Position numbers and translations under genes: made by a program
Assembly: GCA_000242935.3 (NCBI GenBank)
Contig: CP007053.1
Span: 6,247,001 to 6,311,000 of the forward strand
Direction of reading: 5' to 3'
From: Opitutaceae bacterium TAV5
Lineage (GTDB): Bacteria; Verrucomicrobiota; Verrucomicrobiia; Opitutales; Opitutaceae
Length of the DNA: 64,000 bases
Part shown: positions 32,503 to 51,318 of the stretch, piece after piece
Position numbering within the stretch: the stretch's first letter is position 1
Layout: every line of letters begins with the position of its first letter
The notes under the pieces: model-generated
What the model was told of the DNA's origin: nothing
Databases searched by the model: none
The model's input: only the letters and a program-made list of their open reading frames with translations

Positions 32503-33885
32503 TCAGGCGAGGACAGCCGTGTTTTGCCGGGCGCGGGCATGGCGGCTGACGGGGCGGGCGAGGCCGAGATTTTCGCGGAGCGTGCGGCCTTCGTATTCGG
32601 TGCGAAAGAGGCCGCGGCGTTGCAGTTCGGGGATGACGAGGTTGGCGAAATCCTCGAGACCGCCGGGCAGATACGGAGCCATGACGTTGAAGCCGTCCGC
32701 CCCCTGTTTGACGAACCACTCCTCGAGCTGGTCGGCGACCTGGACGGGTGTGCCGATGACGGTCCAGTGGCCGCGGGCGCCGGCGATGGCCTCGTAGAGC
32801 TGGCGGATGGTGAGGTTTTCGCGCCGCGCAAGGTCGATCATCACCTGCTGGCGGCTCGGGCTGCCGTTGGTCGAGGGCAGGTCGTCGAAGGGCAGCGGAC
32901 CGTCCACCGGATACGGTGAGAGATCGAAGTTGCCGAGCAACGCGGAGAGGAGCGAAAGGCCGACCTCGGGCTGGATGAGAGCGGTGATCCGCTCGTATTT
33001 GTCGCGGGCTTCCTGCTCCGTGCGGCCGATCCAGGCCTGCACGCCGGGCATGATTTTCACCTGGTCGGGGGTGCGTCCGTATTTGTGCAGGCGGCCCTTG
33101 AGGCTGGCATAGAAGGCGCGGGCGTTGGCCAGACTGGTGTGCGCGGTGAAGATGACCTCGCTGGTGCGGGCGGCGAGTTCCTGGCCGGCGTCGGAAGAAC
33201 CGGCCTGCACGAGCACCGGATAACCCTGCGGCGGGCGGGCGACGTTGAGCGGACCGCGCACGGAGTAATGGGCGCCGCGATGGTTGAGAACGTGGAGTTT
33301 TGCCGGATCAAAATTGCGTCCGGTGGTCTTGTCGCGGATGAAGGCGTCGTCGTCCCAGCTGTCCCAGAGCCCGGTCACGACATCGACGAATTCTTCGGCC
33401 CGGGCGTAGCGGTCGGCATGGGCATAATGTTCTTCGAGATTGAAGTTTTTCGCCTCGAAGAGATTCGAGGACGTGACGATGTTCCAGCCGGCGCGGCCGC
33501 CGCTGAGGTGATCGAGCGAGGCGAATTTGCGGGCGAGGTTGTAGGGTTCGTTGAAACTCGTGGACGCGGTGGCCACCAGGCCGATGTTCCGGGTGATGGC
33601 CGCCAGCGAGGAAAGCAGCGTGATCGGCTCGTATTGCGAAAAACCGTGCGCGGTGCGGCTGAGGACATCGGTCTCGCGGCCGTGAATGCCGGCGCTGTCG
33701 GCAAGGAAAACGGTGTCGAATTTCGCGCGTTCGCCGAGTTCGACGAGGCGGCGGTAGTGTTCGAAGTTGAGGTGCCCGTCAGCGGTGGCATCGGGATGGC
33801 GCCAGGAGGCGACGTGGTGGCCGTTCGGATAGATGAAGAGGCCGAGCTTGATCTGAGGTTTTCTGGCGGAGGATGAAGTGCCCAT
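32503..33885 (-). CDS. DszA/NtaA/SnaA-type LLM flavin-dependent monooxygenase, copy 1
   Basis: This 460-residue paralogue of the following gene shares GHHVASWRHPDA, ASTSFNEPYNLARKFASLDH and SGGRAGWNIVTSSN near the FMN site, and LRENLGLARPVSRHARA at the end. It belongs to the DszA/NtaA/SnaA class, which uses reduced FMN from a partner reductase to oxidise organosulfur or organonitrogen compounds. It is the first gene of the seven-gene operon; the promoter should lie in the 267 bases upstream. Two adjacent diverged copies suggest two substrates or two successive oxidations. The start at 33885 gives MGTSSSARKPQIKLGLFIYP. Confidence 0.93.
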   Translation of the reverse strand: MGTSSSARKPQIKLGLFIYPNGHHVASWRHPDATADGHLNFEHYRRLVELGERAKFDTVFLADSAGIHGRETDVLSRTAHGFSQYEPITLLSSLAAITRNIGLVATASTSFNEPYNLARKFASLDHLSGGRAGWNIVTSSNLFEAKNFNLEEHYAHADRYARAEEFVDVVTGLWDSWDDDAFIRDKTTGRNFDPAKLHVLNHRGAHYSVRGPLNVARPPQGYPVLVQAGSSDAGQELAARTSEVIFTAHTSLANARAFYASLKGRLHKYGRTPDQVKIMPGVQAWIGRTEQEARDKYERITALIQPEVGLSLLSALLGNFDLSPYPVDGPLPFDDLPSTNGSPSRQQVMIDLARRENLTIRQLYEAIAGARGHWTVIGTPVQVADQLEEWFVKQGADGFNVMAPYLPGGLEDFANLVIPELQRRGLFRTEYEGRTLRENLGLARPVSRHARARQNTAVLA

Positions 33886-36717: not shown

Positions 36718-38175
36718 ATGAACAGATACCGCAAGCTCACCACCGCCGCCCTCCTCGCCGCGGCCACGACGTTCGGCCCCGTGGCTCCCGCCCGCGCCGA
36801 CGAAGCCGCCCTCCAGAAGCAGATCAACGATCTGCAGGAGACCGTCCGCCAGTTGCAGGCGCAGCTGGAGGCCGACCGCGCCGAGAGGAAAAAATTCCTC
36901 GACTCCTCCCGCGAGGCCGCCGTGGCCGACACCACCCCGGTCCGGAGTCCGTCCTCCTCCTCCCGCACGCCGGGCATCGACCCGTCCTCCACCTCGCTGG
37001 ACGGCGTGCGGCGCGACACGTTTGCCACCAGCGGCGTCAGCACCGCGACCGCCGAAGATCTCGAATCGGTCCGCGAACAGATCGGCGACCAGCTCGACCG
37101 CCGGCTGCGCGTCCGCAACGGCGTCGGCGTCGTTGTCAACGGCAGCGCGATCGTCCGCTACACGGACGACGAGAATCCCAATACTTCCCGCGGTCTCACG
37201 ATTCCCTCGGCCACCCTCGGTTTCAGCGGCAGCCTCCGCTCGGATCCGGTTGACGAGGGTGACGTCAACTACTCGCTTTCCTTCAACTATGGCACCGGTG
37301 CCAGCGGCAGCGTGAACGATGCCTGGGTGCAGTGGAATGTGAAAACCCTCGGCAAGGGCGAGCTCGAGCCCGCCTGGACTCTCGGTTTCACACTCGGCCA
37401 GCAGGCCGTCCTCTTCGGTAACGACAACACCGGCAACGAAGAAACCCGCCCCACCATCAATACGGCCGGTTATCTGGGAGAATTCCGCACTCGCGACATC
37501 GGCCTGACCGCCACCGGCGGCTTCAACTGGAATTACGACGCCTCCGCCCCCGCCGGTCTCGAAAACGTCCCCACGATCGCCTACACGCTGGGCGGCTTCA
37601 ACGGCAACGGCACCGGCGCCGAGGACAACGACGACAAGGCCTTCCTCGGCAAACTCGTCTACGCCCCCTTCACCAAATACAACACCTTCTTCCAGGGCCT
37701 GAAGTTCGGCTACTCCTATATCCAGTGGGATTCCGGCAGCGGCTCCGGTCGTATCAGCAACAAGCTCAACAGCATTCACGCCGAGTGGCTCAAGCTCCCC
37801 TTCCTCGTCACCGCCGAATACGTCTGGGGCGAAGGCTGGGACCAACGCGGCCCGGGCTTCGGCCCGGCCGTGGACAAGGACGACTTCGTCTTCACCGTCT
37901 TCTACCGCCCCGGCAAGCTTCCCGACTTCGAGCCGCTCTTCCGCTACGACCGCTTCCGGCAAAACAAGGACCGCTCCGACAACGGCCTGCGCGAGACTTA
38001 CACTGTCGGCTTCAACTACTACTGGTGGCAGGTCGATCCCGTTGTCCGCCGCACTTACGAGACCACCAAGACCGAGCGCGTGATCAAGCTCCAGGTGAAC
38101 TACAACTTCGTGAAAGACGACACCACCGCCTGGGACGACAACCAGTTGCTGACCCAGCTCGTTTTCAACTTCTGA
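36718..38175 (+). CDS. outer-membrane porin with N-terminal coiled coil
   Basis: The product has 485 residues. A signal peptide (MNRYRKLTTAALLAAATTFG ... ARA) is followed by a short coiled coil (LQKQINDLQETVRQLQAQLE, about residues 32-60). A beta-barrel of the phosphate-selective porin O/P type follows, ending in TQLVFNF with the terminal Phe expected for Bam recognition. It likely lets small anions cross the outer membrane. It is the first plus-strand gene upstream of the substrate-binding protein and ABC transporter genes, so it may admit the sulfonates or other substrates they handle. The upstream open frame from 36448 is not part of the protein. Confidence 0.88.
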   Translation: MNRYRKLTTAALLAAATTFGPVAPARADEAALQKQINDLQETVRQLQAQLEADRAERKKFLDSSREAAVADTTPVRSPSSSSRTPGIDPSSTSLDGVRRDTFATSGVSTATAEDLESVREQIGDQLDRRLRVRNGVGVVVNGSAIVRYTDDENPNTSRGLTIPSATLGFSGSLRSDPVDEGDVNYSLSFNYGTGASGSVNDAWVQWNVKTLGKGELEPAWTLGFTLGQQAVLFGNDNTGNEETRPTINTAGYLGEFRTRDIGLTATGGFNWNYDASAPAGLENVPTIAYTLGGFNGNGTGAEDNDDKAFLGKLVYAPFTKYNTFFQGLKFGYSYIQWDSGSGSGRISNKLNSIHAEWLKLPFLVTAEYVWGEGWDQRGPGFGPAVDKDDFVFTVFYRPGKLPDFEPLFRYDRFRQNKDRSDNGLRETYTVGFNYYWWQVDPVVRRTYETTKTERVIKLQVNYNFVKDDTTAWDDNQLLTQLVFNF

Positions 38176-38226: not shown

Positions 38227-39306
38227 ATGAAAAACAAATACCATATCCGCACCAGGACCGCGGCCACGCTGGCCGCTATGACCGCCCTCGCCTCCCTCGT
38301 CGCCACCACCACCGCCTCCGCCGCTCCGAAGAAACTGGATGTCATCAACATCCCGCTCAACTCGTGGACGTCCATCGCCGCCAAGAAAGGCTGGCTTCAG
38401 CAAGAGTACGCCAAGTACGGCACCCGCGTCTCCCTGCTCGACCAGGGAACCGCGGCGGTCGCCGGACAGGAAGCCGCCCTGCTCGCCCGCGGCGACCTGC
38501 ACTTCGCCTCCCGCATGTCCTACCCGGCGCTCATCCACAAATCCAACGGACTCGATGCCCTCATCATCTGGCAATCCGAGCAGTCCGACATCTACCGCAC
38601 GCCTCTCATCGCACTGCGCGAATCGCCGCTCGAGAGCATCGCCGACCTGAAAGGCAAAAACTTCGGAGGAAGCCGCGTCGGTTGCGGCTGGAGTTCTCCC
38701 TACGAAGCGCTCCGCGACAATGGCCTGCCGCTCGACACTCCCGTCAAGCGGGGTGAAGTGCGTTTCACGACCATTTCCAGCTCCACCGGCCTGACCTCGG
38801 CGCTTCTCGGCGGCAAGATCGACTTCACTGCCACGCATATCGCGCTCGGCGGCTGGGCCAATCTCGTCACCCAGGGTGTCATCAAGGTCATCGGACGCAG
38901 TCCGGCGGATGGAGAATACGTCAAGGGCGCAGGCCGCCCGGCCTTCTTCGCACTCACCAGGTTCGCGAACGAATATCCCGAGCTCGTCAAAGCTTTCCTC
39001 GACGTCCGCGCCCGAACCACCAAGTGGATCGTCGAGAATCCCGACGAGGCCGCATCCATCATCGCCCGCGAGACCCGTGTGCCTCGCTACGTCGCCAAGT
39101 TCATGATCACCGACGCCTCCGCATTCGACTTCATGGCCGGTGAACCCAGCTACGAGACGGCCGTCGCCAGCATCAAGTCGTTCCAGAAATGGTATAAGGA
39201 AAACGACGACGATATCCTCGCCAAACAGTCTCTCTCCGACGCCCAGATCGAAGCCTTCGTCGACAAACGGTTTTTCAAAGGAGGCGAATTCTCCATCTAC
39301 AACTGA
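38227..39306 (+). CDS. ABC transporter substrate-binding protein (SsuA/NMT1-like), exported
   Basis: This 359-residue periplasmic binding protein has a clear signal peptide (LAAMTALASLVATTTASA) and a two-domain NMT1/SsuA fold: KLDVINIPLNSWTSIAAKKG, IADLKGKNFGGSRVG and GKIDFTATHIALGGW. It is the only member of this superfamily in the island with a signal peptide, so it is the likely binding partner of the permease and ATPase. Sulfonates, sulfate esters, taurine or nitrate are typical ligands for this group; sulfonates fit the context. A strong intrinsic terminator follows at 39338, probably raising its level over the permease genes downstream. Confidence 0.9.
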   Translation: MKNKYHIRTRTAATLAAMTALASLVATTTASAAPKKLDVINIPLNSWTSIAAKKGWLQQEYAKYGTRVSLLDQGTAAVAGQEAALLARGDLHFASRMSYPALIHKSNGLDALIIWQSEQSDIYRTPLIALRESPLESIADLKGKNFGGSRVGCGWSSPYEALRDNGLPLDTPVKRGEVRFTTISSSTGLTSALLGGKIDFTATHIALGGWANLVTQGVIKVIGRSPADGEYVKGAGRPAFFALTRFANEYPELVKAFLDVRARTTKWIVENPDEAASIIARETRVPRYVAKFMITDASAFDFMAGEPSYETAVASIKSFQKWYKENDDDILAKQSLSDAQIEAFVDKRFFKGGEFSIYN

Positions 39307-39337
39307 TCCGCCATCGTATCCGTTTCTCCAGGCGCCA

Positions 39338-39376
39338 CCGCATGGACGGTCGTCCAGCGCCGTCCATGCGGTTTTT
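39338..39376 (+). terminator. intrinsic terminator or attenuator between SBP and permease genes
   Basis: A perfect 12-bp stem CCGCATGGACGG (39338-39349) / CCGTCCATGCGG (39360-39371) with a 10-base loop is followed by TTTTT. It lies 32 bases after the SBP stop and 82 before the permease start, so partial read-through would give excess binding protein. Confidence 0.85.
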
Positions 39377-39457: not shown

Positions 39458-40363
39458 ATGAATTCCGTCACTGCCGCAACTACCGCCGCCACCTCGGGCG
39501 CCGCCGTTCCTTCCGCTCATCCCGAAGCCTCCGGCGTGGCGCCCCGGACGCGCGGCGCCTCCACCGTCACCACCGCAGCCGGAAGCCGCAAGCGGTACGC
39601 GCGGATCAAACCGGGCTATGTGCTTCCGGTCATTCTCCCGATCGTCATCCTTGCCGCCTGGCAGCTCGCCACGACCAACGTCTGGGTGCCGCCGATCATG
39701 CTGCCCTCGCCCGTACGCGTCTTCAACACCGCCCGGGATCTTTTCGCGGACGGCATTCTCTTCAACGATTTTATCACCAGCATCACCATCGTCATCCAGG
39801 GGTTTGCCTGGGGCTCAAGCATCGGCCTCGTGCTCGGCGCCTGGGCCGGTCTTTCGCGCCACGTCGAGCGTTTCTTCGGACCGACGCTCGATGCCCTCCG
39901 CTCCGTGCCGCCGCTCGCCATCCTGCCGCTCATCATTCTCTGGGCGGGCGTCGGCGATCTCGGCAAGGTCATCGTCATCTCGAAGACCGTGTTTTTCCCG
40001 GTCTTTCTCAACACCGTGCAAGGCATCCGCTCCGTACAGAAGGAATACGTCGAGGTCGGCCATGTCTTCAGGCTCACCCGCTGGCAATTTGTCCGCAAGA
40101 TCATCGTCCCGGGCGCCCTGCCCTCGATCCTCGTCGGCGTGCGCTTTGCCGCCGGCCTCTCGTGGGCAATGATCATCGCCGCCGAAATGCTCTCCGGTCA
40201 CGAAGGCCTCGGCTATCTGATCCAGCGCGCCCAGGACCTCCTCTTCACGGACCAGATGTTCGTCGCCATCTTCGTCATCGCCGCCTTCGGCCTCGGGCTC
40301 GACCTGATTCTCCGCCGCATCGAACGCCGCCTCCTCCGCTGGAAACAGGGTTATGTCGGATGA
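39458..40363 (+). CDS. ABC transporter permease, SsuC/TauC-like
   Basis: This is an inner-membrane permease of the BPD_transp_1 family, 301 residues, with about six transmembrane segments from residue 52 onward. The EAA-type loop that docks with the ATPase is visible in EYVEVGHVFRLTRWQFVRKI followed by VPGALPSILVG. The 45 N-terminal residues are a Ser/Thr/Ala-rich tail without membrane character, unlike SsuC, and resemble the tails of other proteins here. Seven desulfinase-like genes come directly after, then the ATPase gene. The start at ATG 39458 follows AATCCGTATCCG, a motif that recurs upstream of other genes in the region. Confidence 0.9.
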   Translation: MNSVTAATTAATSGAAVPSAHPEASGVAPRTRGASTVTTAAGSRKRYARIKPGYVLPVILPIVILAAWQLATTNVWVPPIMLPSPVRVFNTARDLFADGILFNDFITSITIVIQGFAWGSSIGLVLGAWAGLSRHVERFFGPTLDALRSVPPLAILPLIILWAGVGDLGKVIVISKTVFFPVFLNTVQGIRSVQKEYVEVGHVFRLTRWQFVRKIIVPGALPSILVGVRFAAGLSWAMIIAAEMLSGHEGLGYLIQRAQDLLFTDQMFVAIFVIAAFGLGLDLILRRIERRLLRWKQGYVG

Positions 40364-40430
40364 CGCCCCGTATCCATTTCCATAACACCACTCCCTGACA
40401 GCCCGCTTCAGATTTCAGACTTCTTCCTCC

Positions 40431-41525
40431 ATGAGCACCATCGCCACCACCACACCTGCCAGCACCGCCACGACTTCGCCCGCCGGCAAGTCCGCCCTTC
40501 TCGACGTCTATTACACCATCTGCCCGACCTTCGTCGCCTCGCACATCGCGCTCGAGCTCGGCTGGCTCGACGAGGAGTTCCGCAAGGCCGGGGCCAACCT
40601 CAAGTACCTGCGTGCCATTCCCGGTGACGCCGGCTGGCTGCCACACTTCAGCCACAAGTTCGACGGGCATCTCTTCCGTGACGGCGGCAACATTCCCTCC
40701 ATCTGGGCGCACGCCGACCATCGCCCCACCCGTCTCCTCGGCCTCACCGCCGCGCCTTCCGGCGGACAGATTCTCGTCCTCGCCAACTCCGGCATCCACC
40801 GCGTCGCCGACCTGCGCGGCCGCAAGTTCGGCCTCACCCGAAGCCTGAATGCCGCCAAGGTCGACTTTGCCCGCGGCACTGCCGAGCGCGGCATCGAGGT
40901 CTCGCTCGCGCTCCACGGCCTCACCCGCAAGGACGTTGAGATCGTCGATCTTCCCTATGCCGACGACCGCTCCCACGGCCATGGCGTCAAGCCTTCCGAA
41001 ATCTGGATTCGCAATCAGGTGAAGAACCAGTACCTCGAAGGCGACGACATCGCCGCGCTGCGCGAAGGCCGTATCGACGCCCTCTACAGCCATGCCAACC
41101 GCTCCGCCGCCCTCGTGCGCACCGGCGAGTTCAAGGTCATCGAGGACCTCGGCCGTCATCCCGACTGGACGCTCGGCGTCGCCAACAGCCCTTGGGCCAT
41201 CACCGTCGACCAGGATCTCGTTGACAAGAAACCCGGGGTGGCCGTCGCCTACCTGCGCGCCGTCATCCGCGCCGGACGATGGGCCAACGCCCACCATGAA
41301 GCCGCCGCTGCGCTTCTCCATCCGTTCTCGCTGCAGCCGACCGTCGAGGACACCGCCCGCGCGATCGAATCGATCGACCTCGTTCCCAACCTTTCCCCGC
41401 AAAACATCGCGGGCATCACCATCGAGAAAGATTTCCTGCTCTCGCACGGCTACGTGAAGCGCGACTTCGACGTGAAGCAATGGGCCGCGCCCGACCTCCT
41501 CGCCGAAGCCTGGCGCAGCCTCTGA
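40431..41525 (+). CDS. DszB-like desulfinase paralogue 1 (annotated elsewhere as ABC substrate-binding protein)
   Basis: The product has 364 residues and no signal peptide. After a Thr/Ala-rich tail (residues 1-20), YYTICP holds Cys31. PHFSH holds His72, and LFRDGGNIPSIW holds Arg83 and Gly86. These correspond to Cys27, His60, Arg70 and Gly73 of the sulfinate desulfinase DszB, with one more residue between His and Arg than in DszB. The C-terminus DFLLSHGYVKRDFDVKQWAA aligns with the DszB end (FLLTNN ... QWAAPEFL). The likely role is cytoplasmic release of sulfite from an organic sulfinate made by the LLM monooxygenases; the substrate is unknown. It is first of seven tandem copies. Confidence 0.8.
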   Translation: MSTIATTTPASTATTSPAGKSALLDVYYTICPTFVASHIALELGWLDEEFRKAGANLKYLRAIPGDAGWLPHFSHKFDGHLFRDGGNIPSIWAHADHRPTRLLGLTAAPSGGQILVLANSGIHRVADLRGRKFGLTRSLNAAKVDFARGTAERGIEVSLALHGLTRKDVEIVDLPYADDRSHGHGVKPSEIWIRNQVKNQYLEGDDIAALREGRIDALYSHANRSAALVRTGEFKVIEDLGRHPDWTLGVANSPWAITVDQDLVDKKPGVAVAYLRAVIRAGRWANAHHEAAAALLHPFSLQPTVEDTARAIESIDLVPNLSPQNIAGITIEKDFLLSHGYVKRDFDVKQWAAPDLLAEAWRSL

Positions 41526-41572
41526 ATCACATCCGCGTTCCCGGCCTCCGCCCATCACCACCACCACTCCGC

Positions 41573-42643
41573 ATGAGCACCTCCCCGTCCGCCCCCCTCC
41601 ACTCCACGGCCACCGCATCCACTCCGGTCGCGGCGATCTACACCCTCTGCCCGGTCCTTGTCGCGTCCAACATCGCCGTCGAGCTCGGGTGGCTCGACGA
41701 GGAGTTTGCCCGCGCCGGCGCCCGCGCCATTTACCTGCGCTCCCTGCCCAGCAGCGGAAGCTGGGAGGCGCACTTCAATCACGATTCACCCAGTCTTTTC
41801 CGTGACGGCGGCAACAGCCCCGCCATCCACGCCCGCGCCGATCTGCGCGACACCCGCCTCCTCGGGCTCACCCAGGCCCAGCCGGCGGGCAAGATTCTCG
41901 TCCGCGCCGACGCCCCCGTTTACCGCGTCGCCGACCTGAAGGGCCGCCGCTTCGCCCTGTATCGGAGCCTCAACGACGACAAGATCGACCACCGCCGCGC
42001 CACCTCCGAACACGGCATCGAAAAAACGCTCACCGTCCACGGCCTCACCCGCGCCGACATCGAGATCGTCGACATCGACGATGACGACGACCGCCCCGGC
42101 CTGCCAGCGCAACGTCCCGCCGAGCTCTGGGCCCGGTATCCCCGCAATGGCTGGACCCTCGAAGCCATCGCGCTGAAGGAAGGCCGCGTCGACGCCCTCT
42201 TCGATTATTCCGTCGGCGGAGCCCGCGCGCTCGAGCAGACCGGCGAGTTCAAGGTCATCGAGGACCTCGACCGCCATCCCGACTGGACGCTCAGGATCGC
42301 CAACTCCCCGCGCACGATCTCGGTCAGCGCAGAGTTTGCCGACCAGCACCCGGAAGTCGTTGTCGCCTTCCTGCGTGCCAGCATCCGCGCCGGCCGCTGG
42401 ATCAACGCCCATCCCGATGCCGCCGCCGAGCTCTTCCGCCGCGTCACCGTCTATCCCGACGCCGCCTCCATCGCCGCGGCGCTGCCGCATTACGACCTCG
42501 TACCCGATCTTTCCGCACAAAACCTCGCCGGCCTCCAGATCGAGACCGATTTCCTCCACGCCCGCGGCTACATCCAAAACGCCCTCGACGTAAAAACCTG
42601 GGCCGCGCCCGACTACCTCGCCGAAGCCCTCCGCACCCTCTGA
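41573..42643 (+). CDS. DszB-like desulfinase paralogue 2
   Basis: The product has 356 residues, without a signal peptide. The catalytic set is kept: Cys26 in IYTLCP, His67 in EAHFNH, Arg77 and Gly80 in LFRDGGNSPAIH, with the DszB-like ten-residue His-to-Arg spacing. It is one of the more diverged copies: the IWA of the common IPSIWA is replaced by IHA, and the middle region (DDDDRPGLPAQRPAELWARY) is its own. The C-terminus ends FLHARGYIQNALDVKTWAAP rather than the usual FLLSHGYIKRDFDV. Divergence around the active site suggests another substrate. The start at ATG 41573 follows 47 non-coding bases. Confidence 0.8.
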   Translation: MSTSPSAPLHSTATASTPVAAIYTLCPVLVASNIAVELGWLDEEFARAGARAIYLRSLPSSGSWEAHFNHDSPSLFRDGGNSPAIHARADLRDTRLLGLTQAQPAGKILVRADAPVYRVADLKGRRFALYRSLNDDKIDHRRATSEHGIEKTLTVHGLTRADIEIVDIDDDDDRPGLPAQRPAELWARYPRNGWTLEAIALKEGRVDALFDYSVGGARALEQTGEFKVIEDLDRHPDWTLRIANSPRTISVSAEFADQHPEVVVAFLRASIRAGRWINAHPDAAAELFRRVTVYPDAASIAAALPHYDLVPDLSAQNLAGLQIETDFLHARGYIQNALDVKTWAAPDYLAEALRTL

Positions 42644-42695
42644 CCCGGCGCCCTCCTCCGCTGCCACCAACTCCCAACTACAAACTTCCACACCT

Positions 42696-43784
42696 ATGTC
42701 CACCACCACGCTCCCGGCTCCCGCCGCCTCCGCCCAAACGCAAACCGCGTCCTCCGCCTCGCTCACCGAGGTCGTTTACACCATCTGCCCGGTCTTCGTC
42801 GCCTCGCACGTCGCCGTCGAGCTCGGCTGGCTCGACGAGGAGCTCCGCAAGGCCGGCGCCAGCCTCAAGTATCTCCGCTCGCTCTCGCCCGAGATCGGCT
42901 GGCTCCCGCACTTCAGCCACAAACTCGACAACCTCTTCCGCGACGGCGGCAACATCCCGTCTATCTGGGCCCACGCCGACAACGTGCGCACCCGCCTCAT
43001 CGGCCTCACCTGGTCGCCCGCCGGCGGACGCATCCTCACCCGCGCCGATTCCGGCATCTATCGCGTGGCCGGGCTGCGCGGCCGCAAGTTCGGCCTCAGC
43101 AAGAGCCTCAACGCCGACAAAGTCGATTGGTGGCGCGGCACCGGCGAGCGTTCCATCGAAGTCGCCCTCGGCCTTGCCGGCCTCACCCGCAAGGACGTCG
43201 AGATCGTTGACATCGGGAACCCCGACAACATCGGCCTCGGCAATGCCTCCAAACCCGCCGACCTCTGGACCCATCGCCGCCGCGACGACCTCTATTTCAC
43301 ACCCGAGGTGCAGGCGCTCCGCGACGGCAAGGTCGACGCCGTTTACAGCAGCTACGGACGCGCCCTCGCGCTCGAACGCACCGGCGAGTTCAAGAGCATC
43401 GAGGACCTTGAAAACCATCCCGACTGGACGCTGCAAATCGCCAACAGCCCCTGGGCCCTGACGGTCAACGCCGACCTCGCCGACAGCCATCCCGAAATCG
43501 TCGTCGCCTTCCTGCGCGCCTCGCTCCGCGCCGGCCGCTGGGTCAACGCCAATCGCGAAGCCGCCGCCACGATCCTCCATCGCGTCACCTACTACCCGAC
43601 CGTCGAGGACACCGCCCGGGCCATCCGCCACGTCGACTTCGTCCACAATCTCTCTCCGCGCAACCTCGCCGGCATCGGGATCGAAAAGGAATTCCTGCTC
43701 ACCCACGGCTACATCAAGCGCGACTTCGACGTCAACGCCTGGGCCGCCCACGACCTCCTCGCCGAGGCACACCGCTCCCTCTGA
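42696..43784 (+). CDS. DszB-like desulfinase paralogue 3
   Basis: The product has 362 residues and no signal peptide. It shows Cys31 (VYTICPVF), His72 (LPHFSHKL), Arg82 and Gly85 (LFRDGGNIPSIW), and a C-terminus LLTHGYIKRDFDVNAWAAHD. The MSTTTLPAPAAS tail resembles copies 5-7 and the ATPase. The variable loop (about residues 170-205) reads DIGNPDNIGLGNASKPADLW and differs from the other copies. This copy and copy 1 look closest to each other over the N-terminal half (VASH.A.ELGWLDEE.RKAGA). A cytoplasmic desulfinase is the favoured reading; an unexported ligand-binding protein is the alternative. Confidence 0.8.
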   Translation: MSTTTLPAPAASAQTQTASSASLTEVVYTICPVFVASHVAVELGWLDEELRKAGASLKYLRSLSPEIGWLPHFSHKLDNLFRDGGNIPSIWAHADNVRTRLIGLTWSPAGGRILTRADSGIYRVAGLRGRKFGLSKSLNADKVDWWRGTGERSIEVALGLAGLTRKDVEIVDIGNPDNIGLGNASKPADLWTHRRRDDLYFTPEVQALRDGKVDAVYSSYGRALALERTGEFKSIEDLENHPDWTLQIANSPWALTVNADLADSHPEIVVAFLRASLRAGRWVNANREAAATILHRVTYYPTVEDTARAIRHVDFVHNLSPRNLAGIGIEKEFLLTHGYIKRDFDVNAWAAHDLLAEAHRSL

Positions 43785-43822
43785 ACCCGCCTATCCGCAA
43801 ACTCCCTCTCTCCGCCAAAAAC

Positions 43823-44956
43823 ATGAGTGCCACTCTCTCCGACATCCCGGCCGCAAAGTCCGGCCAGACAAAAACCGCCGCGTCTCCGGCGGTTGAAATC
43901 ACCTACACCATCTGCCCGATTTACGTGGCCTCTCATGTCGCCCTCGAACTCGGCTGGCTGGAGGAAGAAATCCGCAAGGCCGGAGGTTCGCCCGGTTTCC
44001 TGCGCGCCAAGCCCGACAACGGCCTCCACGCCCATTTCAGTCATCGCCATGACAATCTTTTCCGCGACGGCGGCATCGTCCCTTCCATCTGGGCCAAGGC
44101 CGACAACACCGACACCACGCTCCTCGCCCTGACCGCCGCGCCTCATGGCGGCGGCCAGATTCTCGTCCGGGCCGACTCCGGCATCCGCCGCGTGGCCGAC
44201 CTGCGCGGTCGCAAGATCGGACTCTCCCGCATCACCAATCCGGGCAAGATCGACTGGTGGCGCGCCACCTCCGAACGCGGCATCGAGCTCGCCCTCGCCC
44301 TCCACGGCCTCGGCCGCGACGATGTCCGGATCGTCGATGTCGAGCACGACGACAGTCACTTCTCCGGTCGCGGCGCCGGGCATCCCCAGGTCGGCGGTTT
44401 TCTCACCGGCGCCAAACCCGCCGACGCGTGGGCTCGCCTCCGCGAAAGGACGATCCCCGGCTTCGTCCCCGAAGTGCAGGCTCTCCAGGACGGCCAGGTC
44501 GATGCCGTGTTCACCAACTTCGGCCGCGCCATCGCCCTGCAACGCACCGGCCTTTTCACCGCGATCGAGGACCTCGGCCGCCATCCGGACTGGACGCTGC
44601 AAGTCTCCAACAGCCCGTGGGCGCTGACGGTCAACACCGACCTCGTCAAAAACCATCCGGAAATCGTCGTCGCGTATCTCCGCGCCGCCATCCGCGCCGG
44701 CCGCTGGATCAACGCCCATCGCGCCGCCGCCGCCGACATCCTCCATCGCGTCACCTATCCGCCGACGCCCGCCGACACACTGCGCGAGATCACGCCGGTC
44801 GATTTCGTACCGAATCTTTCCGCACAGAATCTCGCCGCCGCCGAAATCAAAAAACAGTTCCTCCTCTCGCACGGTTACATCAAGCGCGACTTCAGCGTGA
44901 AGGAATGGGCTGCGCCCGACCTCCTCGCCCAGGCCCACCGCAGCCTTCCCGCCTGA
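43823..44956 (+). CDS. DszB-like desulfinase paralogue 4
   Basis: This is the longest copy, with 377 residues. It has Cys31 (TYTICPIY), His71 (HAHFSHRH), and Arg81 and Gly84 (LFRDGGIVPSIW). The extra length is a loop in the middle (about residues 170-215; HDDSHFSGRGAGHPQVGGFL) that no other copy has. The His- and Gly-rich loop may shape the substrate pocket. The end reads FLLSHGYIKRDFSVKEWAAP. As with its neighbours there is no signal peptide and no Shine-Dalgarno sequence; the ATG follows CCGCCAAAAAC. The gene precedes the AACTCTAAACTC spacer repeat. Confidence 0.8.
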   Translation: MSATLSDIPAAKSGQTKTAASPAVEITYTICPIYVASHVALELGWLEEEIRKAGGSPGFLRAKPDNGLHAHFSHRHDNLFRDGGIVPSIWAKADNTDTTLLALTAAPHGGGQILVRADSGIRRVADLRGRKIGLSRITNPGKIDWWRATSERGIELALALHGLGRDDVRIVDVEHDDSHFSGRGAGHPQVGGFLTGAKPADAWARLRERTIPGFVPEVQALQDGQVDAVFTNFGRAIALQRTGLFTAIEDLGRHPDWTLQVSNSPWALTVNTDLVKNHPEIVVAYLRAAIRAGRWINAHRAAAADILHRVTYPPTPADTLREITPVDFVPNLSAQNLAAAEIKKQFLLSHGYIKRDFSVKEWAAPDLLAQAHRSLPA

Positions 44957-44990
44957 ACTCTAAACTCTAAACACTAAACTCCAGACACCC
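44957..44990. repeat. AAACTCTAAACTC spacer repeat, copy A
   Basis: The 34-base spacer between paralogues 4 and 5 is an A/C/T-rich near-tandem array (ACTCTAAACTCTAAACACTA then AACTCC) with almost no G. The spacer between paralogues 5 and 6 has nearly the same sequence, which points to duplication of a gene-plus-spacer unit. Confidence 0.75.
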
Positions 44991-46088
44991 ATGTCCACCG
45001 CCACGCTCCCGACTCCTGCCGCCGCCACCGCCGCGCCCGCGCAATCCGCCGACGCCGCTCCCGTCATCCAGGCCAACTACACCATTTGCCCGGTGCTCGT
45101 CGCCTCCAACGTCGCCGTCGAACTCGGCTGGCTCGAGGAGGAAATCCGCAAGGTCGGCGGCAACCTCAACTACCTCGGCGCCCTGCCCGAGTCCGTCGGC
45201 TTCCTCCCGCACTTCAGTCACAAGCTCGACAACTTTTTCCGCGATGGCGGCAACATCCCCGCCATCTGGGCCAAGGCCGACCACACCGACACCCGGCTCA
45301 TCGGCCTGACTGCCGCCGCCCGCAGCGCCGGCCATATTCTGGTGCGCGCCGATTCCGGCGTCCACACCGTGGCCGGTCTGCGCGGACGCAAGTTCGGCCT
45401 CTATCGCAGCCTCAATGCCGGCAAGGTCGACTTCTGGCGCGGCACTGGCGAGCGTGCCATCGAGCTCGCCCTCGCCCTGCACGGCCTTGCCCGCAAGGAC
45501 GTCGAGATTCTCGATCTCGATCACGACGACGACACCTTCCGCCGCGGCGGCAAGCCCTCCGAAATTTTCAAGGACGACGTCCCGAGCTTTGCCGAAGTCG
45601 AGGTCAACGCCCTCGCCGAAGGCCGCGTCGATGCCATCTATTCCTGGCCGGGCCGTTCCCGCCGGCTCGAGGCCACGGGCACGTTCAAGGTCATCGAAGA
45701 TCTCGACCGCCATCCCGACTGGACGCTCGGCGTCGCCAACAGCCCGTGGACGATCACCGTCAACACCGCGTTCTCGAAAGAGCACCCGGAAGTCGTCGTC
45801 GCCTACCTCCGCGCTGCCATCCGCGCCGGCCGCTGGGTCAACGCCAACCGCGCCGCCGCCGCCGACATTCTCCAGCGCGTCGCCTTCGGCTTGGACATCG
45901 ACGAAGTCCGCGCCTACGTCGCCACGCTCCCCGACTTCGTTCCTGACCTCTCGGCCAAAAACCTCGCCGGCATTGAAATCGAAAAACAGTTCCTGCTCTC
46001 GCACGGCTACATCAGCCGAGACTTCGACGTGAAACAGTGGGCCGCTCCCGAATTCCTCGAACAAGCCCGCCGCTCCCTCTCCGCCTGA
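44991..46088 (+). CDS. DszB-like desulfinase paralogue 5
   Basis: The product has 365 residues. It has Cys33 (NYTICPVL), His74 (LPHFSHKL), and Arg84 and Gly87 (FFRDGGNIPAIW), with a MSTATLPTPAAATAA tail. The middle loop is LDHDDDTFRRGGKPSEIFKD, shorter and acidic. The C-terminus FLLSHGYISRDFDVKQWAAP retains the DszB end motif. It lies between two nearly identical spacers, which suggests that it or a neighbour arose by a recent unit duplication. There is no signal peptide. The enzyme reading rests on active-site conservation, as for the other copies. Confidence 0.8.
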   Translation: MSTATLPTPAAATAAPAQSADAAPVIQANYTICPVLVASNVAVELGWLEEEIRKVGGNLNYLGALPESVGFLPHFSHKLDNFFRDGGNIPAIWAKADHTDTRLIGLTAAARSAGHILVRADSGVHTVAGLRGRKFGLYRSLNAGKVDFWRGTGERAIELALALHGLARKDVEILDLDHDDDTFRRGGKPSEIFKDDVPSFAEVEVNALAEGRVDAIYSWPGRSRRLEATGTFKVIEDLDRHPDWTLGVANSPWTITVNTAFSKEHPEVVVAYLRAAIRAGRWVNANRAAAADILQRVAFGLDIDEVRAYVATLPDFVPDLSAKNLAGIEIEKQFLLSHGYISRDFDVKQWAAPEFLEQARRSLSA

Positions 46089-46127
46089 ACTCCAAACTCT
46101 AAACACTAAACTCCAAACAAAACACCT
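46089..46127. repeat. AAACTCTAAACTC spacer repeat, copy B
   Basis: ACTCCAAACTCTAAACACTA then AACTCCAAAC, almost the same as the 44957-44990 spacer over its first 30 bases, and again directly after a Ser-Ala or Pro-Ala stop context (GCCTGA). Confidence 0.75.
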
Positions 46128-47210
46128 ATGTCCACCGCCACCCTTCCGACCACCGTCACCACCGCTCCCGTCGCGACCCAAACACCTGTCGCGATCGATA
46201 TCCACTACACCATCTGCCCCGTCTTCGTCGCCTCCAACGTTGCGCTCGAACTCGGGTGGATCGAAGAGGAAGTCAAAAAAGCCGGCGGCAAACTGAACTA
46301 CCTGTTCACCGGCTCCGACGACGCCCACTACCTTCCCCACTTCAGTCACCGGCACGACAACCTCTTCCGCGATGGCGGCAACATTCCCTCCATCTGGGCC
46401 AAGGCCGACAACACCGACACCACGCTCGTCGGCCTCACCTGGGCGCCGCATGGCGGCCAGATCGTCGTCCGCGCCGGTTCCGGCATTCATCGCGCCGCCG
46501 ACCTCGCCGGCCGCCGCATTGCCCTCTACAAAAGCGAACACGCCGGCAAGGTCGACTGGTGGCGCGCCACCAGCCATCACGGCATCCTTCTCGCGCTCAA
46601 ACTCGCCGGCCTCACCACCGATGATGTCGAACTGGTGGACATCAATGACGCCGACCGCCCCTGGGGCGGTGGCGCCCGTCCCGCCGATGTCTGGGCCACC
46701 CGTCCCGCCGAACGCCGCATCCTCGGCTCCGAAGGCGTGGCGCTGCGCGAAGGCCAGGTGGATGCTCTCTTCACCAGCCTCGGCCGCGCCCGCTCGCTGG
46801 TGGAGACCGGCGAGTTCACCATCATCGAGGATCTCGGCCGCCACCCCGACTGGACGCTCCAGATCAACAACAGCCCCTGGGCGCTGACCGTGAACACCGA
46901 ACTCGCGCAAAAGCATCCGGAAATCGTCACCGGCTATGTTCGCGCCGCCGTCCGTGCCGGACGCTGGATCAACGCCAACCGCGCCGCTGCCGCGGAAATT
47001 CTCCACCGGACCAATTTTTATCCCTCGGTCGCTTCTCTGGAGCAGGCCATCCGGCACATCGACTTCGTGCCCAACCTCTCCGCGCGCAACCTCGCCGCCA
47101 TCACTCTCCAGAAAAACTTCCTCCTGAAATACGGCTACATCAAAAACGACTTCGACGTATCCTCCTGGGCCGATGCCCGCTTCCTCAACGAAGCGGCGAA
47201 CAGCCTCTGA
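46128..47210 (+). CDS. DszB-like desulfinase paralogue 6
   Basis: The product has 360 residues. It has Cys30 (HYTICPVF), His71 (LPHFSHRH), and Arg81 and Gly84 (LFRDGGNIPSIW). The tail is MSTATLPTTVTTAPVATQTP. Differences from the other copies are clustered: FTGSDDAHY before the active His, DLAGRRIALYKSEHAGK in place of the common DLRGRKFGL.RSLNAGK, and a C-terminus FLLKYGYIKNDFDVSSWADA that loses the usual QWAAP. It is thus a well-diverged copy with an intact catalytic set. A palindromic repeat sits in the 180-base gap to copy 7. Confidence 0.8.
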   Translation: MSTATLPTTVTTAPVATQTPVAIDIHYTICPVFVASNVALELGWIEEEVKKAGGKLNYLFTGSDDAHYLPHFSHRHDNLFRDGGNIPSIWAKADNTDTTLVGLTWAPHGGQIVVRAGSGIHRAADLAGRRIALYKSEHAGKVDWWRATSHHGILLALKLAGLTTDDVELVDINDADRPWGGGARPADVWATRPAERRILGSEGVALREGQVDALFTSLGRARSLVETGEFTIIEDLGRHPDWTLQINNSPWALTVNTELAQKHPEIVTGYVRAAVRAGRWINANRAAAAEILHRTNFYPSVASLEQAIRHIDFVPNLSARNLAAITLQKNFLLKYGYIKNDFDVSSWADARFLNEAANSL

Positions 47211-47243
47211 TTCCCGATTCCCTGATCACCACTCCACACCCTC

Positions 47244-47345
47244 GGCAGGGGAGCCCCGCTGAGGCGTCCGGTTCGGGCGGCGATTCCATTCCGGTTCGTC
47301 CCATTTCGCGGCCTCTCGCGAACGCCTCATCCGGGCTCCCCTGCC
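47244..47345. repeat. 102-bp palindromic element between paralogues 6 and 7
   Basis: Perfect 13-base ends GGCAGGGGAGCCC (47244-47256) and GGGCTCCCCTGCC (47333-47345) are inverted copies; an inner pair TGAGGCGT (47260-47267) / ACGCCTCA (47322-47329) extends the arms. It breaks the otherwise short spacing of the desulfinase array and looks like a small non-autonomous insertion. As RNA it would form a large hairpin in the operon transcript. Confidence 0.8.
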
Positions 47346-47390
47346 ACCCGATTCCAACGACAAAATTCAAACTGCCAACTCCCGCCACTC

Positions 47391-48479
47391 ATGAGCACCG
47401 CCACACTCACCGCCCCCGTCCAGTCGTCATCCGCCACCCGCGGTCTGACCGAAGCGTATTACACGATCTGCCCCGTCCTCACCGCCTCCAACGTCGCGGT
47501 CGAGCTCGGCTGGCTCGAAGACGAATTTCGCCGCGTGCACGCGAAACCTGTTTATCTGCGCTCCCTGCCCGGCAATGCCGGCTGGCTCCCGCACTACACA
47601 CACGCGCTCCATCCGCTCATCCGTGATGGCGGCTCCATCCCCACCATCCAGGTGCACGCCGATCTCGAGGACACCACGCTCGTCGCGCTCACCGGCAACC
47701 AGTCCGGCGGCCAGATCGTGACCCGCGCCGGCACCGGCATCCACCGCGTCGCCGACCTGCGCGGTCGCAAGATCGGCCTCTTCCACAGCCTCAACAAGGG
47801 CAAGATCGACTTCTCCCGCGCCACCGCCGAACGCGGCATTCTCCTCGCCCTCGAACTCGCCGGTCTCAAGCGCCAGGAGGTCGAAATCGTGGACCTCGAA
47901 GATGCCGACGACCCGTCCTTCCTCCAGCCCGCCTCGAAACCGTCCGGACTCTGGTCGCAACTCCGCGACGAGCGGGTCGGCTTCAACGGCCTCGGCAAGG
48001 ATGCGCAGGCGCTGCGCGACGGCCGCATCGACGCCATCTACGCCAATCACGGCCGTTCGCACACCCTCGTGCGCACCGGCGAGTTCACCGTCATCGAGGA
48101 TCTCTCGCGTTATCCCGACTGGACGCTCCAGATCGCCAACGGTCCGTCCACCAACGCCGTGAGCACCTCGCTCGCCAAAGAGCATCCGGAAATCGTCATC
48201 GCTTTCCTGCGCGCCTCGATCCGCGCCGGCCGCTGGATCAACGCCAACCGGGAGGCTGCCGCCGACATCTTCAAGCGCGTCACCTTCTTCACCTGCTCGC
48301 GGCAAATCCTGAAGGCGATCCGCGACATCGACTTTGTCCCCAATCTCTCGCCGCAAAATCTCGCCGCCACCACCCTCCAGAAAAACTTCCTCCGCGATCA
48401 CGGCTACCTGAAGAACGACTTCGATGTGAAGGACTGGGCCAACTCCGCCTTCCTCGAAGAAGCCCTGCGCGGACTCTGA
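47391..48479 (+). CDS. DszB-like desulfinase paralogue 7
   Basis: The product has 362 residues. It has Cys27 (YYTICPVL), His68 (LPHYTHAL), and Arg78 and Gly81 (LIRDGGSIPTIQ). It is the most divergent at the active site: HY replaces HF, LIR replaces LFR, and IQV replaces IWA. The end reads FLRDHGYLKNDFDVKDWANS. The tail MSTATLTAPVQSS is shared with copies 5 and 6. The ATPase gene begins 11 bases after its stop, so copy 7 and the ATPase are surely co-transcribed. No signal peptide is present. Confidence 0.8.
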   Translation: MSTATLTAPVQSSSATRGLTEAYYTICPVLTASNVAVELGWLEDEFRRVHAKPVYLRSLPGNAGWLPHYTHALHPLIRDGGSIPTIQVHADLEDTTLVALTGNQSGGQIVTRAGTGIHRVADLRGRKIGLFHSLNKGKIDFSRATAERGILLALELAGLKRQEVEIVDLEDADDPSFLQPASKPSGLWSQLRDERVGFNGLGKDAQALRDGRIDAIYANHGRSHTLVRTGEFTVIEDLSRYPDWTLQIANGPSTNAVSTSLAKEHPEIVIAFLRASIRAGRWINANREAAADIFKRVTFFTCSRQILKAIRDIDFVPNLSPQNLAATTLQKNFLRDHGYLKNDFDVKDWANSAFLEEALRGL

Positions 48480-48490
48480 ATCACGCACGC

Positions 48491-49372
48491 ATGTCCACCA
48501 CCGCCACACTCACCCGACCGGCCGCTTCCGTCGCCAGCTCCGCCCGCAAGAAAGGCTCCGCTGCCTCCCGCGAACAGCGCGGGCCTCGCACCCTGTACAT
48601 CGACGATGTCAGCAAGCACTTCCTCCTGAAGGATTCCTTGCTCCATGTCCTCGATCACGTCTCGTTCTCCGTCGAGCCTGGCGAGTTTGTGAGCCTGCTC
48701 GGCGCCAGCGGTTGCGGCAAGTCCACCCTTCTCCGCCACATCGTCGGTCTCGACAACGACTACGAAGGACAAATCCGCCTCGGCAGCGAAATCGTGCGCG
48801 GCACCAGCCTGGATCGCGGTGTCGTCTTCCAGGACCACCGTCTGCTCCCCTGGCTCAGCGTCGAGGACAACGTCAGCCTCGGCCTCATCAACAGCAAGCT
48901 GACCCGGCTCGAACGCCAGCTTGCCGTGCGCGAACACCTCGAACTGGTCGGCCTGCGCGGTTTCGAAAAATCGTATCCGCACCAGCTCTCCGGCGGCATG
49001 GCCCAGCGCGTCGCCATCGCCCGCGGCCTCGTCAACCGGCCCGAAGTGCTCCTCCTCGACGAACCGCTCGGCGCGCTCGACGCCATCACGCGGCTCAACC
49101 TTCAGGACGAGCTGCTGCGCATCTGGCGGCAGGAACAGGCGACCATGCTCCTCATCACCCACGATGTGGAGGAGGCGCTCTACCTCTCCGACCGCATCGT
49201 CGTCCTCGATGTGCGCCCGGGACGGGTCAAAGGCATCGTGCCCATTACGCTCGCGCGCCCGCGCGATCGCGTGAGCCATGCTTTCGCCGACCTCAAGCGC
49301 GAGGTGCTCGAACTGCTCTCCATCGAAATCCCCGGCTCTGCCGAGGACCCCTCCCTGGCCGGCAACATCTGA
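48491..49372 (+). CDS. ABC transporter ATP-binding protein, SsuB/TauB-like
   Basis: This 293-residue ATPase powers the permease encoded 8 kb upstream in the same operon. Walker A is GASGCGKST, the signature is QLSGGMAQRVAIARG, Walker B is VLLLDEPLGALDAIT, and the switch His is in LLITHDVEEALYLSDR. The closest relatives by motif are the nitrate/sulfonate/taurine importers. An extra 35-residue N-terminal tail (MSTTATLTRPAASVASSARK) is not part of the ABC fold and resembles the tails of the desulfinase copies. Its stop TGA overlaps by one base the ATG of the next gene. Confidence 0.94.
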   Translation: MSTTATLTRPAASVASSARKKGSAASREQRGPRTLYIDDVSKHFLLKDSLLHVLDHVSFSVEPGEFVSLLGASGCGKSTLLRHIVGLDNDYEGQIRLGSEIVRGTSLDRGVVFQDHRLLPWLSVEDNVSLGLINSKLTRLERQLAVREHLELVGLRGFEKSYPHQLSGGMAQRVAIARGLVNRPEVLLLDEPLGALDAITRLNLQDELLRIWRQEQATMLLITHDVEEALYLSDRIVVLDVRPGRVKGIVPITLARPRDRVSHAFADLKREVLELLSIEIPGSAEDPSLAGNI

Positions 49373-50496: not shown

Positions 50497-51318
50497 ATGT
50501 CACAATCCATCCATACGCTTCTGCAAACCCGCTACGGCGACGCTGCTCCCGCCGTGGCGCCTTATGTCAACGAGACGATCACCACGCTTCTCAACCACCG
50601 CTCCGTGCGCGCCTTTCTGCCCGACGCCCTCGGCGAAGGCGTGCTCGAACTGATCGTCGCCGCCGCCCAGTCCGCTTCCACGTCCTCCAACATCCAGGCG
50701 TGGAGCGTCATCGCCGTGCAGGACCCCGAACGCAAGGCCCGGCTCGCCGCGCTCGCCGCCAACCAGAAACAGATCCTCGAAGCGCCGCTCTTCCTCGTCT
50801 GGGTAGCCGACCTCTCGCGCCTGCGCCGCATCGCCGATCACATCGGCGACCCCGCCGCCGGCCTCGAACGGCTCGACTCGTTCCTCGTCGGCGTGACCGA
50901 CACCACCATCGCCGCGCAGTCCGCCGTGGCCGCCGCCGAGTCGCTCGGTCTCGGCGTGGTTTACATCGGCGCCCTCCGCGCCCAGCCCGACAAGGTTGCC
51001 GCCGAGCTCAACCTCCCGGCCGGCTCCTTCCCGCTCTTCGGCCTCGTCGTCGGCAAACCCGATCCTTCCCGCCCGGCCTCCGTGAAACCGCGCCTGCCGC
51101 AGACCGTCGTGCTCCACCGCGAGCAATACTCGACCGAGCACGAGCGCAGCGGACTCGACGCCTACGAAACCACGATCCAGGCGTTCCAGGCCTCGCAAAA
51201 ACTCCCGATCCAGGAATGGCGCCGCCAGGCCGTCGGTCGCGTCAAGGCTCCCGAGGTTCCCAACGGCCGCACGCCCATCCAGGACGCGCTCGTGCAACTC
51301 GGCTTCACCGTTCCCTGA
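50497..51318 (+). CDS. NfsA/FRP-type NADPH:FMN oxidoreductase
   Basis: The product has 273 residues of the nitroreductase superfamily. The HRSVRAFLPDALGEGVLELI start, QSASTSSNIQAWSVIAVQ, and LGLGVVYIGALRAQPDKVA match the NfsA and Vibrio FRP branch, which reduces FMN with NADPH and supplies FMNH2 to LLM monooxygenases. In this setting it is a good candidate for the flavin reductase of the DszA-like and DszC-like enzymes, a function done by the unrelated DszD in Rhodococcus. It may also act on nitro or other substrates. It starts 13 bases after the SCO gene and ends the co-oriented run. Confidence 0.88.
   Translation: MSQSIHTLLQTRYGDAAPAVAPYVNETITTLLNHRSVRAFLPDALGEGVLELIVAAAQSASTSSNIQAWSVIAVQDPERKARLAALAANQKQILEAPLFLVWVADLSRLRRIADHIGDPAAGLERLDSFLVGVTDTTIAAQSAVAAAESLGLGVVYIGALRAQPDKVAAELNLPAGSFPLFGLVVGKPDPSRPASVKPRLPQTVVLHREQYSTEHERSGLDAYETTIQAFQASQKLPIQEWRRQAVGRVKAPEVPNGRTPIQDALVQLGFTVP

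Follow-up and report, generated by a model that had tools for sequence, protein, structure and literature searches.

Described desulfinases and sulfonate-binding proteins

The described protein that best matches the genes studied here is the desulfinase DszB (2'-hydroxybiphenyl-2-sulfinate desulfinase, PDB 2de2/2de3). The available text of a computational study models its active site with S25, C27, H60, R70 and G73, Cys27 being the proton donor, and reports that an RXGG motif is conserved across DszB homologues and that the loop 187-204 becomes helical upon substrate binding (PMC6100217). The periplasmic sulfonate-binding proteins SsuA and TauA form the other group of comparison. In Gordonia terrae C-6, the described parts of the bdsABC operon combine DszA/DszC-like monooxygenase genes with one desulfinase gene, and sulfonate-type ATP-binding cassette (ABC) genes with neighbouring locus numbers appear in the table of genes up-regulated on benzothiophene (PMC3868597). 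Here we describe seven tandem DszB-like genes in Opitutaceae bacterium TAV5, at positions 40431-48479 of a 64,000-nucleotide stretch of contig CP007053.1 (positions 6,247,001 to 6,311,000 of the forward strand; hereafter the window). The TAV5 genome (7,317,842 + 99,831, i.e., 7,417,673 bases in two contigs) comes from a termite hindgut bacterium that was isolated in culture (PMC4358385).

The array shares with DszB the fold, a full-length alignment, the residues S/T25, C27, H60, R70 and G73, the RxGG motif, the apparent lack of a signal peptide, and the presence of DszA-family and DszC-like genes nearby. It differs by its low identity, by a histidine in place of Tyr63 and a threonine in place of Ser25, by another gating loop, and by its seven copies, which share an operon with an importer. 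With SsuA and TauA it shares the fold, weak profile matches and a context of permease and ATPase genes, but these proteins are secreted, lack the Cys/His/Arg set and occupy a separate branch of the tree. The locus resembles that of G. terrae in its gene content and differs from it by the number of desulfinase genes and by having its monooxygenases outside the operon. Judging from homology, residue conservation, fold matches, neighbourhood and the age and spread of the paralogues, all of which were computed, the seven genes probably encode cytoplasmic DszB-type sulfinate desulfinases that would release sulfite.

An array of seven DszB-like genes

An earlier preliminary description of the locus had noted seven adjacent paralogues, and the array consists of seven intact open reading frames, all on the + strand and head to tail. 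They encode DszB-like products of 356-377 amino acids (aa), are separated by 34-180 bp, and copies 2 to 7 are 53-63% identical to copy 1. Copy 1 (40431..41525, 364 aa) carries C31, H72 and R83. Copy 2 (41573..42643, 356 aa), for which 41573 is a better start than 41480, carries C26, H67 and R77, and copy 3 (42696..43784, 362 aa) C31, H72, R82 and G85. The corresponding residues are C31, H71 and R81 in copy 4 (43823..44956, 377 aa), C33, H74 and R84 in copy 5 (44991..46088, 365 aa), C30, H71 and R81 in copy 6 (46128..47210, 360 aa), and C27, H68 and R78 in copy 7 (47391..48479, 362 aa).

The predicted active site

The five residues of the DszB model align to T29, C31, H72, R82 and G85 of copy 3, the last four exactly where the preliminary description had matched them to C27, H60, R70 and G73. 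All five positions are kept in every copy, S25 as a threonine, and the motifs YT[IL]CP, H[FY]xH and [FI]RDGG were each found in all seven. The distance from His to Arg is ten residues in six copies, as previously noted, and eleven in copy 1. The claim that most copies keep the C-terminal QWAAP of DszB stands only in a looser form: the exact motif is restricted to copies 1 and 5, WAAP occurs in four copies, WAA in five, and the tryptophan in all seven.

The same set extends to the wider family. We collected 105 matches scoring above 100 bits (family matches below this value were left out), which gave 99 distinct relatives once identical ones were merged. The counterparts of Cys27, His60, Arg70 and Gly73 and the RxGG motif are present in all 99, as in the seven copies; the Cys, the His, a second His, the Arg, both Gly and the following Pro are invariant. 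At the S25 position, 87 relatives have Thr and 12 have Ser. Most of these sequences were retrieved from a collection scan with the patterns ELGW[LI][ED][ED]E and IEDLx[RN][HY]PD, neither of which contains active-site residues, and the invariance is therefore more than chance. We saw neither the Cys nor the His nor the Arg in any of 12 SsuA or other binding-protein rows (10 aligned at the site, two gapped). Six of the seven copies have exactly one cysteine, the one in the motif, and copy 7 has a further one at position 302. Invariant residues together with a single cysteine are what one would expect of an enzyme, not of a transporter component.

Sequence, fold and phylogeny

When copy 3 was searched against the PDB with phmmer, its sole significant matches were DszB (2de2, E 6.8e-11) and the C27S mutant of DszB (2de3, E 1.8e-9), the next match being at 0.099. 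A profile of the seven copies matched DszB with E 3.1e-24 and SsuA-type chains with 5.1e-7 or worse. The structural comparison that had been proposed as a check was made for copies 3 and 2, whose AlphaFold models have pLDDT values of 92.2 and 93.2. Ranked by Foldseek E-value, three DszB chains occupy the first three places for both models, followed by chains of SsuA, TauA and Thi5 (DszB: 1.2e-19 for copy 3 and 1.9e-21 for copy 2; best SsuA: 2.7e-14 and 1.7e-16). DszB thus outranks the binding proteins by E-value for both models, and its lead in TM-score is small.

Two phylogenies were built. A quick tree had 76 rows (22 chosen loci that were ABC-linked or related, 12 solo loci, VE3 and single rows); a more careful one was made by removing ten of these (seven from the family, three binding proteins) and adding five. 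In the latter, of 71 rows, DszB and 59 DszB-like rows are split from 11 SsuA, TauA and other binding-protein rows at 100/99.5 (bootstrap/SH-aLRT, the Shimodaira-Hasegawa-like approximate likelihood-ratio test). The seven copies do not fall inside SsuA, a placement that would have spoken against the preliminary description; they group with DszB.

Location and annotation

No signal peptide was seen in any of the seven copies, judging from their N-termini, which are rich in Ser, Thr, Ala and Pro and whose first 25 residues carry a net charge of 0 or -1. The binding protein encoded in the same operon has a charge of +4, a hydrophobic stretch from residue 15 and a visible signal peptide. Peak hydropathy overlaps between the copies (1.6-2.3) and five binding proteins (2.1-2.6), and by itself it does not tell the two groups apart.

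Profile libraries score the copies as transporter components. The Pfam profile NMT1 matches five of the seven above its cut-off, and the NCBIfam matches are only to SsuA-, taurine-, SaoX- or TRAP-type models, all below cut-off. The model SsuA_fam gives 57-78 bits for the seven copies, short of the 163.5 required for membership, and matches 42 of the 42 family members scanned. A 346-residue fragment of DszB behaves in the same weak manner (51 bits): its NCBIfam scan matched SsuA-type models, all below their cut-offs, and no model of a desulfinase. Among the 40 plasmid records listed out of 93, 18 name a product at the match, 17 times an ABC transporter substrate-binding protein and once a monooxygenase. 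The copies are therefore likely to be mislabelled as transporter binding proteins, and the scans point to an annotation gap in which the DszB-like family is scored mainly as sulfonate-binding proteins.

Age and divergence of the copies

A close relative of the array is in Opitutaceae VE3 (JACSRI010000122.1; loci L029/L025). Copies 2, 3, 5, 6 and 7 pair one to one with VE3 copies 6 (100/98), 1 (100/99), 3 (99/99), 4 (99/95) and 5 (100/99), i.e., with bootstraps of 99-100 and SH-aLRT values of 95-99. Copies 1 and 4 have no clear one-to-one orthologue in VE3, and their placement varies: they join each other at 77/18, and copy 1 is beside copy 5 in the quick tree. Copy 2 and its VE3 partner group with six rows of Pseudomonadota at 100/99, and Pseudomonadota are also found in the 14-row group of copy 7 (94/93) and in the 6-row group of copy 6 (99/92). 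In the two cases compared, two-gene operons mix these groups: that of Uliginosibacterium combines those of copies 2 and 7, and that of Aminobacter those of copies 2 and 6. A recent tandem burst was rejected because five copies have one-to-one orthologues in VE3 and copies 2, 6 and 7 belong to separate, wider clades that include Pseudomonadota. The comparison thus indicates that the array is old. The preliminary description had proposed a strongly expanded family: the seven copies are indeed there, but they do not make a fresh expansion, since copies have orthologues in VE3. In all five orthologue pairs, the rate of nonsynonymous substitutions (dN 0.15-0.26) is below that of synonymous ones (dS 0.83-0.93, near saturation; NG86 method).

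One of the regions in which the copies diverge most is that corresponding to the substrate gate of DszB. Its loop 187-204 aligns to positions 187-198 of the copies, where their mean identity is 0.28. The seven copies have an average identity of 0.56 over positions 22-362, compared with 0.29 (178-189) and 0.16 (190-201) in the 12-residue blocks at the gating loop. Moreover, 11 positions are constant within all five orthologue pairs and yet show at least three kinds of residue between pairs, including the site of DszB Gln65, whose mutation affects activity. Variability around the gating region would fit different substrates, and the copies, which keep a single predicted active site, most likely differ in the sulfinates that they would act on.

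The importer operon and its neighbourhood

The array is enclosed in an apparent ABC-importer operon, with genes for a binding protein and a permease before it and for an ATPase 11 bp after it. The first (38227..39306, +) encodes a secreted SsuA-type substrate-binding protein, identified with Pfam and NCBIfam, without the Cys, His and Arg. The permease (39458..40363, +; scanned from 39290) has SsuC/TauC-like profile matches, and the ATPase (48491..49372, +) SaoA/NrtD/SsuB-like ones. Upstream is a gene for a porin-like protein (36718..38175, +) with a weak match to Pfam Porin_O_P (22.9 bits, cut-off 20.9). A terminator-like hairpin (39337..39372, +; perfect arms of 13 nt, -34 kcal/mol, z -5.0) separates the binding-protein and permease genes and could possibly keep the binding protein in excess. 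From the permease through the seven copies to the ATPase (39458-48491), no obvious Shine-Dalgarno sequence was seen by eye in the 20 bases upstream of the starts. A promoter scan gave no excess of sites (two, against 2.1 in shuffles). Copies 6 and 7 are 180 bp apart, and this gap contains a 102-bp imperfect palindrome (47244-47345) with arms of 40 nt that are 78% complementary; the region 47236-47352 has a folding z of -5.8. We rejected it as a mobile or repeat element, given its single match in the genome.

Potential partners in sulfur metabolism surround the operon. Two genes on the - strand, at 32503..33885 and 31055..32440, encode flavin mononucleotide (FMN) monooxygenases of the NtaA/DmoA/DszA family, with TIGR03860 scores of 588 and 600 bits (cut-off 279.7). 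A third monooxygenase gene (25502..26695, -) is DszC/MsuC-like: its product matches MsuC (6u76) with E 5e-96, DszC with E 1.9e-85 and the model NF043015 with 325 bits (E 4e-97), below its cut-off of 850. At an E-value of 0.001, the whole 7.4-Mb genome has only these two TIGR03860 members and this one DszC-like gene, all in the window, and the monooxygenase genes lie 6.5-14 kb upstream of the array. Two nitroreductase-family proteins (29144..30013, -; 50497..51318, +) are possible flavin reductases, and a multi-domain rhodanese (26788..28410, -) may take part in sulfur handling. Taken together, the neighbourhood is close to the dsz gene set in content, though it is not one operon. An amidohydrolase (30010..31062, -) has a relative that adjoins a DszB-like gene in Pseudomonas (locus L081). 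A gamma-glutamyltransferase-like gene (23731-25335; TIGR00066 318 bits, below the cut-off of 358) adjoins the DszC-like gene.

Relatives in other genomes

VE3 shares with TAV5 the porin, the binding protein, the permease, a DszB-like array and the ATPase, as well as two nitroreductases, the rhodanese and one TIGR03860 gene, the counterpart of 32503..33885. Its array differs by having six copies (five of them the one-to-one orthologues) in another order, and the locus has one TIGR03860 gene instead of two. Elsewhere, one or two DszB-like copies lie beside an importer at four loci (L030, L031, L036 and L044). Among 79 DszB-like loci on the map, which used L025-L106, 24 have an ABC ATPase match, some loci being on short contigs. 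In Sinorhizobium B11, genes annotated as LLM oxidoreductase, DszB-like and acyl-CoA dehydrogenase (the superfamily of DszC) stand in a row.

We counted DszB-like copies in 21 genomes reached through these loci: VE3 has six, followed by genomes with five (Methylocystaceae FeB_33, on three contigs), four and four. A TIGR03860 match above the cut-off is present in 12 of the 21. In a sample of the phylum, two of 387 genomes have a DszB-like gene, one of them TAV5; at most five candidates were scored per genome, which makes copies uncountable there. Both sets are samples and not a full survey.

Radical-SAM-like proteins adjoin importer and DszB-like genes in a Spartobacteria bin (L030, 4698-5993) and in an Omnitrophota bin (L072, 3819-5078), the match at L072 being just under the Pfam cut-off. 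In Pseudomonas (L058 and L081), a gene that, by eye, is cystathionine beta-lyase-like precedes the DszB-like one; at L081, so does a relative of the amidohydrolase gene mentioned above. A separate clade of DszB-like proteins (YTNCP ... IRFGG; 45 chosen loci among L045-L105, and L109) has no ABC-operon matches and includes bins assigned to many phyla, e.g., Methanomicrobiales, Bacteroidales and Acidobacteriota. Its neighbours at the 45 loci, many of which are short so that the counts are lower bounds, include SulP (at least 16), rhodanese (at least 12), a relative of bile-acid:sodium symporters (at least 11) and, by eye, a flavin adenine dinucleotide (FAD) disulfide oxidoreductase-like protein (at least 21). 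In Rhizobium leguminosarum, a gene of this clade lies between those for a 2-hydroxyacyl-CoA dehydratase and its activase.

Weighing the desulfinase reading

The preliminary reading of the copies as DszB-like is supported by these comparisons; enzyme activity is what we infer from them. A number of observations count against this reading or against parts of it. Identity to DszB is only 24-27% (copies 3 and 2), and the replacement of Tyr63 by His in all seven copies means that the pocket differs. The margin in TM-score is small (DszB 0.72-0.78, best SsuA chains up to 0.74-0.75; for copy 2, DszB 0.72-0.75 and SsuA 3uif 0.69-0.74). DszB has a long branch in each tree (2.45 in the careful one), and in the quick tree, which included fewer remote DszB-like rows, its position was equivocal (91 with the family, 46 with binding proteins). 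The variability at the gating loop may be ordinary drift, since the block 298-309, which has no known role, is equally variable (0.24), and dS is close to saturation. The monooxygenase at 32503..33885, the one of the two compared with the PDB, matches DszA (5tlc, E 3.9e-100) less well than chains of the nitrilotriacetate (NTA)-monooxygenase family, YtnJ and MoxC. Nor are dszA, dszB and dszC together as in a dsz/4S operon: the array is on the + strand from 40.4 kb, and the genes of the DszA family and the DszC-like one occupy the - strand at 25.5-33.9 kb. No DszC-like gene was found in VE3 at E 1e-30, and TIGR03860 gave no match of any strength in six of the 21 genomes that carry DszB-like genes, five of these six being metagenome-assembled genomes. 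Finally, the mechanism of DszB was computed, in the available text, for aromatic sulfinates (PMC6100217), and nothing in the array indicates the carbon part of its substrates.

Since the copies are encoded between the permease and the ATPase, they might be additional substrate-binding proteins of this importer, each delivering a different sulfonate. They share the fold of such proteins, SsuA_fam matches every family member scanned, and in the structural comparison SsuA chains rank directly behind DszB at similar TM-scores. We consider this very improbable: the operon already encodes a secreted binding protein and no signal peptide was seen in the copies, the aligned binding proteins lack the invariant Cys, His and Arg, and the tree separates them from the copies. 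The profile matches also lose weight, as they are far below the cut-off and a DszB fragment scores alike. The cytoplasmic appearance of the copies and their association with an ATPase gene would be compatible with another role, that of free-standing sensor domains gating the transporter, in the manner of the C-terminal domain of CmpABCD, a bicarbonate transporter, which likewise resembles a binding protein. Foldseek also matched this regulatory domain (9uak, E 3.3e-9 for copy 3 and 4.7e-11 for copy 2), but DszB is around ten orders of magnitude better, a sensor would not need an invariant Cys-His-Arg set, and many DszB-like loci lack an ABC match. This role is very improbable.

Enzymes of this fold catalyse several reactions, and the copies could be lyases of another kind, e.g., decarboxylases like 4,5-dihydroxyphthalate decarboxylase or enzymes like the hydroxymethylpyrimidine (HMP) synthase Thi5. 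Both proteins are fold matches, and the histidine in place of Tyr63 would agree with a different chemistry. Their matches are weaker than those of DszB, the neighbourhood is sulfur-related, and the five residues of the DszB model are kept. The motif CCCFC of Thi5 HMP synthases is absent from all seven copies. Another lyase reaction is very unlikely, and we retain sulfinate desulfination as the probable function.

A possible route for organic sulfur

In the scheme that we propose, location, catalysis, substrates, division of labour and direction of flow would fit together as follows. The ABC importer would take up an organosulfur compound, which the flavin monooxygenases, where needed, would oxidise and cleave at a C-S bond to give a sulfinate, with the nitroreductase-family proteins as their partners. 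Whichever copy fits this sulfinate would then desulfinate it: in these putative enzymes with the fold of periplasmic binding proteins, the Cys-His-Arg set would cleave the C-S bond, giving sulfite, which would enter sulfur assimilation, and a desulfurised carbon compound. We regard this chain of import, oxidation to sulfinate and desulfination as having about an even chance of being correct. The pair of importer and desulfinase may not always depend on a TIGR03860 monooxygenase.

A broader proposal is more tentative, and we put it at somewhat below an even chance. The locus could be an import-coupled bank of desulfinases, seven anciently diverged enzymes that share one active site but differ in their gates, every copy serving a particular class of sulfinates. 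They would belong to a broad family, found in bacteria and in bins assigned to methanogens, that is scored mainly as sulfonate-binding proteins. Where TIGR03860 proteins are lacking, importer and desulfinase would desulfurise ready-made sulfinates without oxygen.

Significance

A single desulfinase accompanied by DszA/DszC-like genes and nearby ABC genes is already known from G. terrae C-6, as the described part of that genome shows (PMC3868597). We found no multi-copy dszB cluster among the matches listed in the open-licence literature on desulfinases and dszB, and the TAV5 genome paper makes no mention of desulfinases (PMC4358385). Five copies of a dszA homologue are described on a plasmid, in a bin that lacks dszB according to the available text (PMC6395730). 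Within the literature searched, a seven-fold, anciently diverged array in the importer operon of a gut Verrucomicrobium was not found in print.

The slow turnover of DszB is named, in the available part of a 2025 paper, as one reason why biodesulfurization is uneconomic (PMC12168087). Seven natural paralogues with the same predicted active site and different gates, from a cultured host, provide a testbed for the study of substrate range and product release. For the organism itself, the array suggests that a termite-gut Verrucomicrobium may draw sulfur from sulfinates.

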